From assembly GCF_020405205.1 (NCBI RefSeq), contig NZ_CP084469.1, forward strand, positions 992,001 through 1,056,000: a stretch of DNA of 64,000 bases. Reading direction: 5' to 3'. The DNA comes from Natrinema salinisoli. Lineage in GTDB: Archaea > Halobacteriota > Halobacteria > Halobacteriales > Natrialbaceae. A program made the translations under genes and the position numbers. A model generated the notes under the pieces. That model saw only the letters and a program-made list of their open reading frames with translations, had not been told where the DNA came from and made no database searches. Shown here piece after piece: positions 10,104-61,590 of this stretch. The stretch's first letter is position 1. Every line of letters starts with the position of its first letter.

Positions 10104-10391
10104 CTACCGTTTCAGTTCCGTCGCGATCGCCTGCATGTCCGCGACTGACGCGACCTCCTCGAGCAGTTCTTCGCGTTCGCGAACTTCCTCGGAGCTGGCA
10201 CCGTACGCACGGACGTATTCGGCGCGGCTGTGCTCAGTGAAGGCGTGGCGGATCGCGAGATAGCCGTCGGGGACGACGGTACCACAGACTTCGCACTCGC
10301 GTCGCTGGTGCTCCGTCGCCTGATGGACGACGGCAGACTCGACGTCCTCGAAGACCGCTCCACAGCCGTCGATCCCGCATTCCCAGGCCAT
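10104..10391 (-). CDS. Small C2H2-type zinc-finger protein
   Basis: 95 residues with two zinc-binding units: CGIDGCGAVFEDVESAVVHQ with a following TEH (about 5-27), and CEVCGTVVPDGYLAIRHAFTEH (33-54). Each has two Cys and two His in C2H2 spacing. The rest is an acidic helical tail. Such tiny zinc fingers are abundant in haloarchaea and are thought to bind nucleic acid or protein, but the function of this family is not known to me. The gene stands alone between the hydrolase and a convergent small gene. Confidence 0.8.
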   Translation of the reverse strand: MAWECGIDGCGAVFEDVESAVVHQATEHQRRECEVCGTVVPDGYLAIRHAFTEHSRAEYVRAYGASSEEVREREELLEEVASVADMQAIATELKR

Positions 10392-10501
10392 TCGATACTG
10401 TCACTCGAACGGCCGCCCTAATGATCTTTTCGCAGCAACGTCTATCAGCCAGAACACACGTGCCCGGTACCGTTTAGTCGCCGCCTCCCTCCGTCTGCAG
10501 C

Positions 10502-10930
10502 ATGCCCGCGACAAACAGGTCGAAACTGACCGAATTCGATGCCGATCGAGTCCGAAAGACGGTTCAGGACACGGTTTCCGGGCCGCTGTTTACGTTCTGT
10601 GAGTACGATACGGAGTCCTTTCGTCCGCTCTACGTCGACGATCGGACGATCTCGATGTACGACAGTCGGGACGCGATGCTCGAGCACTTCGAGCGGATCC
10701 ACACGAACGTCCACATGGACTTCATGCAGAGCAAACTCTTCAAGAATACGCTGTTTCCGGAGGCAGAGCGCGTCGAGTACATCACCACTGCGATGGACTT
10801 CCTGAAGGTTCTCCGGGTGTACATCGGCGACGACGGGCTCTTCATCGCGATCGAGCCCGACGAACCCGTCGTTCCGATCGTCGACGCGATCAAGGCGACC
10901 ATCGAGTGGCCACCAAATCAGAATTCATAA
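10502..10930 (+). CDS. Conserved haloarchaeal hypothetical protein
   Basis: 142 residues, soluble, mixed alpha/beta, no signal peptide and no recognised catalytic motif. The central segment (FTFCEYDTESFRPLYVDD, then MLEHFERIHTNVHMDF) looks like the DUF7522-type small proteins of haloarchaea; this name is from memory. Codon use and GC match the neighbours. It precedes the PHP-like gene by 25 bp on the same strand, so the two may share a transcript. Confidence 0.75.
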   Translation: MPATNRSKLTEFDADRVRKTVQDTVSGPLFTFCEYDTESFRPLYVDDRTISMYDSRDAMLEHFERIHTNVHMDFMQSKLFKNTLFPEAERVEYITTAMDFLKVLRVYIGDDGLFIAIEPDEPVVPIVDAIKATIEWPPNQNS

Positions 10931-10955
10931 CTCGGGTGTCGCAAAAGGAACTCTC

Positions 10956-11720
10956 GTGACCGATGGAGTGACGTTCCGAGTCGACTGTCACGTGAAGGTG
11001 CTCAACGACACGATCGTCGAACGGGCCAAGCAGGCCGACCTCGACGCGCTCGTGTACGCACCTCACTTCGTTCGTTTCCCGGAGATCCGCGACCGAGCGG
11101 CGTCGTACTCCGACGAAGACCTGCTGGTGATCCCCGGCCGCGAGGTGTTCACCGGCACGTGGCGCAATCGCAAACACGTCCTCGCGATCGGCCTCGAGGA
11201 TCCCGTCCCGGACTTCATATCGCTCGAGGCGGCGATGGCCGAGTTCGATCGCCAGGACGCGACCGTGCTGGTCCCGCATCCGGAGTTCGCGAACGTGAGC
11301 CTCTCCGAACGGGACCTCCGGACCTACGCGGAAACGATCGACGCGATCGAAATTTTCAATCCTCGTCACTTTCCATCGAACAATCGTCGTGCGCGCGAAC
11401 TCGCCGACACCCTCTCGATCCCGCCGTTTACGTCCTCGTACGCACACCTCCCGCGATCCGTCGGCATCGCTCACACCGTCTTCGAGTCGCGGATCGACGG
11501 CGAGTCGGACCTCTTGACTGCGTTCGAGAACGGCGTCGCCCGTCGAATCGTCTACGACAACGGCCTCGAGCGGTGGGGGACGACCGTCGCGGAGCTCAGC
11601 CACCTCGTCTACGAAAACACCTGGAAAAAGGTCGATCGCCTCTTTCTCTCGGGGACGGAGCCGACCCATCCCCACCACATCGCCTACGACGGTCGATTCG
11701 ATGACGTGGCCGTGTACTGA
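10956..11720 (+). CDS. PHP-domain-like metal-dependent phosphoesterase, degenerate first motif
   Basis: 254 residues with a GTG start at 10956. It follows the PHP layout: an initial VDCHVK motif, YAPHF and PGREVFTG strands, LVPHPEF, and a late SYAHLPRSVG. In canonical PHP proteins the first motif is HxH; here it reads D-C-H-V-K, so one metal-binding histidine is missing. Related haloarchaeal proteins are annotated PHP-associated. It may act as a phosphoesterase with altered metal site, or be a non-catalytic relative. It probably shares a transcript with the small gene 25 bp upstream. Confidence 0.75.
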   Translation: MTDGVTFRVDCHVKVLNDTIVERAKQADLDALVYAPHFVRFPEIRDRAASYSDEDLLVIPGREVFTGTWRNRKHVLAIGLEDPVPDFISLEAAMAEFDRQDATVLVPHPEFANVSLSERDLRTYAETIDAIEIFNPRHFPSNNRRARELADTLSIPPFTSSYAHLPRSVGIAHTVFESRIDGESDLLTAFENGVARRIVYDNGLERWGTTVAELSHLVYENTWKKVDRLFLSGTEPTHPHHIAYDGRFDDVAVY

Positions 11721-59227: not shown

Positions 59228-59662
59228 TTATCGATCTCGATCCCGATTCGCTCCCAGATCGGCCTCCGAGACGATCTCTGCCCCGACGGGGGAGAGATCG
59301 ACGGTCACGTCCTCGGTAACCGCTTTACTGATTTCGTCCAGGTTCCCCGCGAGCACCGTCACCACGTCGTCGGGACTGGTGTAGACCAGCATGTTCCCGT
59401 CCTGTCCCTCCGCGACGAGCTGGGTATCGTTCAGGACGACCTGGTCGTTCTGAATCGTCGCCGAGACGACCGGCAGGGCTGCGGGCTTCCCCGGCTCGTC
59501 GTCCCTGACTTTGCGGATGTGAACCTCGTCGAGGTCGATTACCTCCTTGTACTCTTTGATCTGCTCGGCGCAGTCGACCATGTCGTTGAGCAGGGCGGTC
59601 CGACGCTCGTTGCCGTGCTCACCGTTGAGACAGTGCTGACAGACGCGGAGTTCGATTCGCAT
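59228..59662 (-). CDS. Conserved hypothetical protein with N-terminal CxxC
   Basis: 144 residues. An N-terminal CQHCLNGEHGNER recalls a zinc or redox CxxC, and the rest is acidic alpha/beta (SATIQNDQVVLNDTQLVAEGQDGNMLVYTSP). Similar proteins occur in haloarchaea, no function known to me. Convergent with the EamA gene. Confidence 0.65.
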   Translation of the reverse strand: MRIELRVCQHCLNGEHGNERRTALLNDMVDCAEQIKEYKEVIDLDEVHIRKVRDDEPGKPAALPVVSATIQNDQVVLNDTQLVAEGQDGNMLVYTSPDDVVTVLAGNLDEISKAVTEDVTVDLSPVGAEIVSEADLGANRDRDR

Positions 59663-59771: not shown

Positions 59772-60449
59772 TCACTCCTCTAACTGATCGCGTATCTCCC
59801 GGATCCGTTCGGTTCCGTGGTCCGCGTACCCGCCGTGATAGCAGACGGTGTGCTCGATCTCGAGTTGCGCCAGCGTCCCGAGAGACTCGACGGCGCGGTC
59901 CATGTCGGGCGTGAAGTGTGGTTTCGGACCGGCGAGCGGCTCCGCTCCGTCCGCGACGAGGGCATCGCCGGCGACGAGCAACGACCCGTCTGGGAAGTAC
60001 AGCGAAACGTGCCCGGGCGAGTGGCCGGGCGTCGCGACGACCTCCATCGGCCCCGCGAGCGTCGGGAACCGGATCTCGTCGGCCAGTTCGATATCGACGT
60101 GGGCAGGCGGATATCGGTCACCGTCACCCTTGATCGGATCCTCCTCGCCCGAGACGTACGCCGATTCGTCGCGATGGGTTGCGACGATCGCATCGACCCG
60201 CTCGAGCAGGGCCGCGAGACCGCCGGCGTGATCCGCGTCGTGATGAGTCAAAATCACCAGCCAGACGTCCGTCAGCTCGTATCCCAGTGATCGCAGATGC
60301 GTCTCGAGGCCGCCCACGGCACCCTGGGGACCCACGTCGAGCAACGCGAGTCCGCGATCAGTTTCGACGGCCGTCGGGGTGACCGTAATTTCTCTGTCGC
60401 CGTATTCGACCGTGATCGGGAGCGTATGAACGCCAGCATCGTTCTGCAT
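59772..60449 (-). CDS. MBL-fold metallo-hydrolase
   Basis: 225 residues. The metal motif reads HHDADH (69-74), the HxDxDH variant found in many hydrolases, with later TPGHSPGH, VAGDALV and a final CYHGGYADH. Starts at the ATG at 60449. Reaction unknown; the pattern is closest to hydroxyacylglutathione-hydrolase-like enzymes. Confidence 0.9.
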   Translation of the reverse strand: MQNDAGVHTLPITVEYGDREITVTPTAVETDRGLALLDVGPQGAVGGLETHLRSLGYELTDVWLVILTHHDADHAGGLAALLERVDAIVATHRDESAYVSGEEDPIKGDGDRYPPAHVDIELADEIRFPTLAGPMEVVATPGHSPGHVSLYFPDGSLLVAGDALVADGAEPLAGPKPHFTPDMDRAVESLGTLAQLEIEHTVCYHGGYADHGTERIREIRDQLEE

Positions 60450-60594
60450 ACAGGAGGTTTTCGGTGCCGGTACGATAGATTTGGCCCTCCGCGAACGCCA
60501 ACCACGTTCGAGTTGCCGCCGAAAAAAAATTTATTTCACAGTAAAATATTTAATTACAACTGTTTTATTACCATCGGCTATGTAGTCGAGCGTG

Positions 60595-61590
60595 ATGCAA
60601 AACGAGGTTCAGGTGCCATTGCTTGAGGACGACGATGCGCAGCTCGCTGCCGTTCGGCAGCAGGGACTTCCCGAGACGGTCGTTCCGTTGATCGATACCT
60701 ACGAGGAAATCGTCGGTGACAGGGATCGATTCCTCTGGCGCTGGCTCTATCACCTGTTTCCGTCGTTTCGGCTGTCGTGCGTCGACGCCGACCGGGGTCG
60801 GATGGTCCGTGACACGAAGCTGATTGCGACGATGTACATCGTCGTCGCGGACGACGTCGCGGAACGCCACGCCGATCGGGCGACGTTCGACGAACTCGCG
60901 GCGATCCCGTTCGACGGTCGCCGTCCCGATCCGGATCGATCCGCCGTCGACGGCGACGTGGTTCGATTCCTGACGGATCTCTGGGACCGCTTCGAAGCGG
61001 CGTACGACGCGGGACCGCGCGCGGCCGAGTTCGCGGATCTGCTCCGGTTCGACCTTCGACAGGCACTCCAGGCGATCGAGTACTCCTATCTCGCGAATCG
61101 CCATCCCAGCCTCGTTTCGGAGCAGGAGCTCTGGCGGTACGACGCACGCAACATGCTGATGTTCGTCTACGCCGACATCGACCTCGCGAACGCGTCGTCG
61201 TTCGACTCGAGCGAACTCTCCTCGCTGCGCCAGGTCATCGATCGAACGGAGCGGATGGCCCGTATCGGCAACTGGCTCTCGACCTGGAAGCGCGAACTCG
61301 ACGAGGGCGACTGGTGCTCCGGCGTCGTCGTCCACGCGCTCGAGAGCGGCATCATCTCCCAGGACCAACTGCAGTCGATCCGGCAGCAGCCGACCGACGC
61401 ATCGATCGATTCGGTCGTCGACGCGATCAGCGACTCCGGCGTCGAGGACTACTTCCTCGATCGCTGGCGAACCGAATACGAAGACGCCAGCCGGTTCGAA
61501 CCCGACATCGAGAGCGTCGACATCGATGCGTACCTCGAGGGCTTCGAAACCATACTGCGCTACCACATGGCCAGCGAAGGGAAGAAGTAG
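60595..61590 (+). CDS. Candidate class I terpene synthase-like protein
   Basis: 331 residues, all-helical and hydrophilic, with no signal peptide. Three features match class I terpene cyclases: an Asp-rich DDVAE at 86-90 (form DDxxE), an N-W-L-S-T-W-K-R-E segment at 226-234 (the NSE/DTE form NxLxTxxxE), and an Arg-Tyr pair at 322-323 near the C-terminus. Spacing is as expected (140 residues between the metal motifs), and Arg181, 45 residues before the second motif, sits at the place of the pyrophosphate sensor. Class I enzymes ionise a prenyl diphosphate using three Mg2+ ions. Motifs are short, so a structural prediction is needed. Other proposals: a non-catalytic relative. ATG follows a GTG directly upstream; a TATA-like stretch is at 60545-60555. 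Confidence 0.6.
   Translation: MQNEVQVPLLEDDDAQLAAVRQQGLPETVVPLIDTYEEIVGDRDRFLWRWLYHLFPSFRLSCVDADRGRMVRDTKLIATMYIVVADDVAERHADRATFDELAAIPFDGRRPDPDRSAVDGDVVRFLTDLWDRFEAAYDAGPRAAEFADLLRFDLRQALQAIEYSYLANRHPSLVSEQELWRYDARNMLMFVYADIDLANASSFDSSELSSLRQVIDRTERMARIGNWLSTWKRELDEGDWCSGVVVHALESGIISQDQLQSIRQQPTDASIDSVVDAISDSGVEDYFLDRWRTEYEDASRFEPDIESVDIDAYLEGFETILRYHMASEGKK

Follow-up and report, generated by a model that had tools for sequence, protein, structure and literature searches.

Gene neighbourhood and reading frame

The 64,000-nucleotide stretch of the Natrinema salinisoli genome analysed here (the window) carries, at positions 60595..61590 of the forward strand, an open reading frame of 331 amino acids resembling class I terpene synthases, which starts with an ATG at 60595 and whose stop codon ends at 61590; an in-frame GTG lies just 5' of this start, at 60592. 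A presumed promoter region with an A+T-rich stretch (60450..60594) separates it from a divergently oriented metallo-beta-lactamase (MBL)-fold hydrolase gene (59772..60449, reverse strand; PF00753, 6e-23). The latter adjoins the synthase in 18 loci; its position beside the synthase is conserved solely within the Natrinema-like clade, where the hydrolase gene is itself adjoined by a small conserved open reading frame of 144 amino acids with no Pfam match (59228-59662 of the window, reverse strand). A cystathionine gamma-synthase gene is convergent with the synthase in the window. The synthase is set in housekeeping synteny common to the Natrinema-like clade, and a functional link with either the MBL-fold gene or the cystathionine gamma-synthase was considered and rejected as clade synteny. 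As claimed in a preliminary description of this DNA, no tailoring genes are adjacent in the window; none are linked to the gene in relatives either.

An antisense open reading frame of 332 amino acids also exists. The forward frame was compared with the 93%-identical copy of Natrinema salsiterrestre (locus L002). Of the 55 substitutions between the two sequences, 34 fall at third codon positions; dN is 0.030 and dS 0.154 (a ratio of ~0.2), and the predicted pI of the 331-residue protein is 4.4. A low protein pI is typical of haloarchaea. The codon-position pattern, the pI and the dN/dS all show that the forward frame is the coding one; 60595..61590 is a genuine gene, and purifying selection acts on it. 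It is the only copy of its family in the window genome.

Homology to terpene synthases

The preliminary description had read the protein as an archaeal homologue of class I terpene cyclases. In a Pfam search it narrowly passed the curated cut-off of Terpene_syn_C_2 (PF19086; 25.0 bits against 23.7, E 1.9e-5), with no match to other Pfam families or to NCBIfam. PF19086 was matched by 65 of 81 family members at E up to 1 and Terpene_synth_C (PF03936), weakly, by 21 of 81 at the same threshold (best E 0.0012), and three probable methanogen members tested gave no PF19086 match at E 0.01. Profile-profile comparison (hhalign) of the haloarchaeal family alignment with 16 bacterial terpene synthases taken from plasmid records gave an E of 1.3e-4 over 242 columns. 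When methanogen-like members were added, the score was 41.5 (E 8e-5) over 245 columns; both metal motifs were in register, the DDxxE of the archaeal family aligning with the DDxxD of the bacterial enzymes; the hhalign probability was only moderate (54-61%). As controls, the highest score among 150 column permutations was 21.0 and among 100 block permutations 31.0; reversal gave 13.7, and none of 32 decoy families built from neighbouring genes exceeded 23.8.

When sequences were ranked with the family HMM, Sat1646 came first (E 8e-5) and Stt4548 second (E 2.4e-3), above all 437 decoys, while canonical bacterial and plant synthases were near background. Pentalenene, aristolochene and limonene synthase queries served solely as baits. 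Sat1646 and Stt4548, the closest solved relatives by this ranking, are actinobacterial class I diterpene synthases that act on copalyl diphosphate (PDB 7E4N and 7E4M; PMC9814573). Searches of the PDB gave nothing significant with the single sequence (E 0.56) or the family profile (E 0.15), Sat1646 being the sole match of the latter. An AlphaFold model built from two sequences only (the window protein and its 93% relative) is all helical but of low confidence, with a pLDDT of 45 and a pTM of 0.31. The Pfam match, the permutation and decoy controls, the HMM ranking and the conservation of both metal motifs give good support to a distant homology: the window protein is a divergent homologue of class I terpene synthases.

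Conserved residues

All the motif elements of the preliminary description were found at the residues given there: D86-D87-V-A-E90, N226-W-L-S-T230-W-K-R-E234, R181 (45 residues before N226) and R322-Y323. Their conservation, counted over 82 aligned haloarchaeal sequences, divides them into two groups. The putative first metal motif (DDxxE; 60850..60864) is kept across the alignment, with D86 in 79 sequences (N in three) and D87 and E/D90 in all 82. The same holds for the NSE-like second metal motif (61270..61296), followed by G238-D239, in which N226, W227, W231, R233, E234 and D239 are each found in 82/82 sequences, as is T/S at position 230; this motif departs from the consensus (N/D)Dxx(S/T)xxx(E/D) in having Trp227 where Asp is usual and otherwise satisfies it. 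The metal-motif residues are retained down to the most divergent, probable methanogen members.

In canonical bacterial class I synthases, the pyrophosphate-sensor Arg lies ~46 residues before the NSE motif (helix G) and an RY pair is found near the C terminus. These roles had been assigned to R181 (61135..61137) and R322-Y323 (61558..61563), but R181 is Arg in only 27/82 homologues, R322 likewise in 27/82, and Y323 is Tyr in 40/82. Thus, of the residues singled out beforehand, D86, D87, E90, N226, T230 and E234 are conserved and R181 and R322 are not; neither the sensor nor the RY pair as then assigned is a family feature, and a sensor Arg at the canonical bacterial position is lacking.

A more plausible candidate is R223 (61261..61263), three residues before N226 and invariant in the haloarchaeal members, which is likely to be the pyrophosphate sensor. 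We propose that it forms an effector triad with N186-M187 (61150..61155; N in 75/82, M in 77/82), a putative linker and effector at a predicted break in helix G, at positions -40/-39 relative to N226. Further upstream, R43-D-R45 (60721..60729) is followed by W48 and W50, with R43 and both Trp in 82/82 sequences and R45 in 49/82; W130, D196, R212 and W291 are also invariant. The Methanosarcina-type branch keeps DDxxD, N...T...E, an Arg or Lys before the E, and D239; R223 is absent from it.

Distribution of the family

Homologues were found in 120 of 391 Halobacteria genomes and 39 of 86 genera, with identities down to ~27%, so that the 'few archaeal examples' of the preliminary description understated a family present in about a third of the Halobacteria sampled. 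A phylum-wide profile search also retrieved divergent members from non-halobacterial families (f13, f15 and f29) that, with the Methanosarcina-type branch, are probably methanogens. In draft genomes of f15, another Halobacteriota family, members at four loci (L129, L130, L131 and L140) were truncated or frame-broken, which could reflect pseudogenes, contig ends or errors of assembly. Members are also present in six haloarchaeal plasmid records, each annotated 'hypothetical protein', the label found throughout the public haloarchaeal records checked; one of these matches also touches a helix-turn-helix gene. A scan of viral contigs with the family alignment retrieved no relative. A maximum-likelihood tree placed the window protein, with good support, in a clade made up of its own taxonomic family. 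Sequences cluster strongly by taxonomic family, so the gene has been passed down within lineages over long periods, apart from some transfers or losses. One genome, G262, has two full-length members in tandem (L045:8826-9890 and 10171-11211), an arrangement noticed at no other locus read.

Regulator genes beside relatives

Neighbouring genes were analysed in 60 loci outside the window's clade, dereplicated at 75% identity, in which genes were called by a codon-position heuristic for GC-rich DNA. Among the 120 proteins at position +-1, Pfam detected PAS in at least 27, BAT and HTH_10 in 15 each, HATPase_c in 12, FilR1_middle in nine and DUF7344 in four; among the 114 proteins at position +-5, HTH_10 was present in two and DUF7344 in three, with no PAS family among the 25 families listed, a list that runs down to families with a single member. 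Using local profiles, regulator types were found in 41/120 adjacent genes (34%) compared with 31/739 (4%) at positions 2-8, an enrichment with an odds ratio of ~12 and a Fisher p of ~5e-20 (computed with 30 in place of 31, and on loci that are not fully independent). Overall, 37 of the 60 loci had at least one PAS, Bat, kinase, FilR1, DUF7344 or HalOD1 gene at +-1.

The type of regulator varied with phylogeny. Early-branching relatives of the window's clade (L054-L061) have FilR1 and DUF7344 genes beside them, many members in other haloarchaeal families are flanked by divergent Bat-type regulators, and a PAS sensor-kinase gene lies just upstream on the same strand in all six Methanosarcina-type loci inspected, two of these upstream genes being annotated PAS/HisKA_2/HATPase. 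Such differences between clades argue that local control meets a functional need and does not stem from one inherited cluster. In the window's own clade, regulator linkage was not seen. On a Halobellus limi plasmid (NZ_CP031312.1; L145:4689-8921), a member is divergent from a bacterio-opsin-activator-domain gene and a HalOD1 gene and lies near N-glycosylation-like genes; a nearby gene labelled 'prenyltransferase/squalene oxidase' was considered as a class II partner and discarded, as it matches GH127 instead.

Proposed function and alternatives

We consider it probable that the window protein is a Mg2+-dependent class I terpene synthase acting on a linear prenyl diphosphate. DDxxE and NWxxTWxRE would coordinate the metal cluster to which the diphosphate binds, and Arg223, acting with Asn186 and Met187 where helix G breaks, would sense the diphosphate and trigger ionisation, as proposed for Sat1646. 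The resulting carbocation would then cyclise or be quenched, in a pocket to whose lining some of the invariant Trp may contribute. The substrate is likely to be geranylgeranyl or farnesyl diphosphate, both of them made by haloarchaea as precursors of lipids and carotenoids. The window genome has three polyprenyl-diphosphate synthase genes, with no dedicated prenyl-diphosphate synthase adjoining the window gene, and no SQHop_cyclase_C gene was found there as a class II partner. In relatives, SQHop_cyclase_C matches were scattered, lacked a convincing DxDD and were rejected as partners. Two Methanosarcina-like loci (L165 and L167) have such matches above the Pfam cut-off in frames of 413 and 433 amino acids without DxDD, and the control Methanosarcina acetivorans matches likewise. 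The product would probably be used without linked tailoring enzymes, and a dedicated sensor or transcription regulator encoded nearby appears to control its synthesis in many relatives.

Several observations speak against an active synthase: the sensor missing at the canonical bacterial position, the missing RY pair, the Trp in the NSE motif where Asp is usual, the lack of R223 in the Methanosarcina-type branch, the merely moderate hhalign probability, the low confidence of the structural model, and the absence of an adjacent dedicated prenyl-diphosphate synthase or tailoring gene. Three other readings were weighed. That the protein is no terpene synthase at all, its motifs being coincidental in an unrelated helical protein or in another isoprenoid family, would fit the marginal single-sequence Pfam score, the empty NCBIfam search and the poor structural model; we regard it as highly improbable given the permutation and decoy controls, the lack of any other Pfam family and the dissimilarity of trans-polyprenyl diphosphate synthases (PF00348; hhalign E 0.6, probability 0.1%, 26 columns). 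Scarcely more credible is a terpene synthase fold recruited to signalling pathways as a non-catalytic binder of isoprenoid diphosphates. The sensor and regulator genes beside so many of the non-syntenic loci would suit such a role, but pseudoenzymes usually lose their metal-binding residues, which are kept here throughout, the Methanosarcina-type branch included, and the window's own clade has no regulator neighbour.

The last alternative accepts catalysis and differs in outcome: the fold could ionise a prenyl diphosphate without cyclising it, as a hydrolase or as a synthase of linear alcohols or alkenes of the geranylgeraniol, nerolidol or geranyllinalool type. Both outcomes rely on the same motifs and are indistinguishable by sequence; the invariant W48, W50, W130, W227, W231 and W291 would suit cation stabilisation, although they are not decisive, and we think a non-cyclising enzyme unlikely. 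Beyond the probable synthase activity of the window protein, we tentatively raise the possibility of an ancient, active archaeal class I terpene synthase family, spanning Halobacteria and methanogens, with a Sat1646-like sensor and an NW-type motif, whose terpene would be made under light, redox or other sensory control (by the Bat-type, FilR1, DUF7344 and PAS-kinase neighbours) and act as a regulated metabolite or signal.

The open-access full-text literature searched (subscription papers and preprints being outside this scope) yielded no characterised archaeal class I terpene synthase and no assayed enzyme of the window family. 'Terpene' gene clusters have been described in Halomicroarcula (PMC8600319), and the available part of a study of the non-canonical classes ID-IF, which have other motifs, names bacteria, fungi, protists and plants and not archaea (PMC11234867). 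If active, the family would extend archaeal chemistry to cyclic or volatile terpenes, represent a deeply diverged synthase lineage and supply enzymes working in high salt; the sensor and regulator neighbours hint at a regulated archaeal terpene that has gone unrecognised. With regulator linkage found in two major groups of archaea, and with genetically tractable species among the Haloferacaceae and Methanosarcinales, the role of such terpenes in archaea is directly testable.

Comparison with known terpene synthases

Canonical bacterial-type synthases also occur in haloarchaea, on plasmids of Halocatena marina (NZ_CP109980.1; L156:5467-7851) and Actinarchaeum halophilum (NZ_CP071308.1; L153:3334-7841), where they have an N-terminal SRPBCC/Polyketide_cyc2 domain and are annotated 'SRPBCC family protein' or 'hypothetical protein'. 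They share PF19086 with the window family, but differ in their strong matches to it (E 7e-46 and 3e-47), their ND..S motif and an adjoining polyprenyl synthetase, and are separate, bacterial-like enzymes. Canonical bacterial sesquiterpene synthases (pentalenene synthase and others; PF19086) resemble the archaeal family in length and in having DDxxD/E and NSE in register; they differ from it in the conserved Arg ~46 residues before NSE and the RY pair. Neither a P450 nor a prenyl synthetase gene adjoins the window gene.

By eye, the family also looks like plant-type synthases (PF03936), with an Arg at motif-3, (D/N)xxxTxxxE followed by G at +12 and, upstream, R-x-R and then Trp. A plant-type origin suggested by this RxR...W and RxxDDxxTxxxE...GD appearance was rejected, since the profile match is not significant (hhalign E 0.37); the archaeal family moreover has no N-terminal beta domain.

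The solved relatives Sat1646 and Stt4548 have very low identity to the archaeal family. The first motif of Sat1646 is EDWQVD in place of DDxxE, the NSE motif of both has ND in place of NW, and a class II cyclase supplies their substrate. In Sat1646 the sensor Arg220 lies three residues before the NSE Asn223, with Asn182/Tyr183 at N223-41/-40, and the sensor position in Stt4548 is Arg236 (PMC9814573). The archaeal family likewise has an Arg at NSE Asn-3 (RLSNDLASYERD...GD compared with RIGNWLSTWKRE...GD) and a linker Asn ~40 residues upstream, so that the arrangement of a helix H sensor Arg and a helix G-break linker and effector appears to be matched by R223, N186 and M187.
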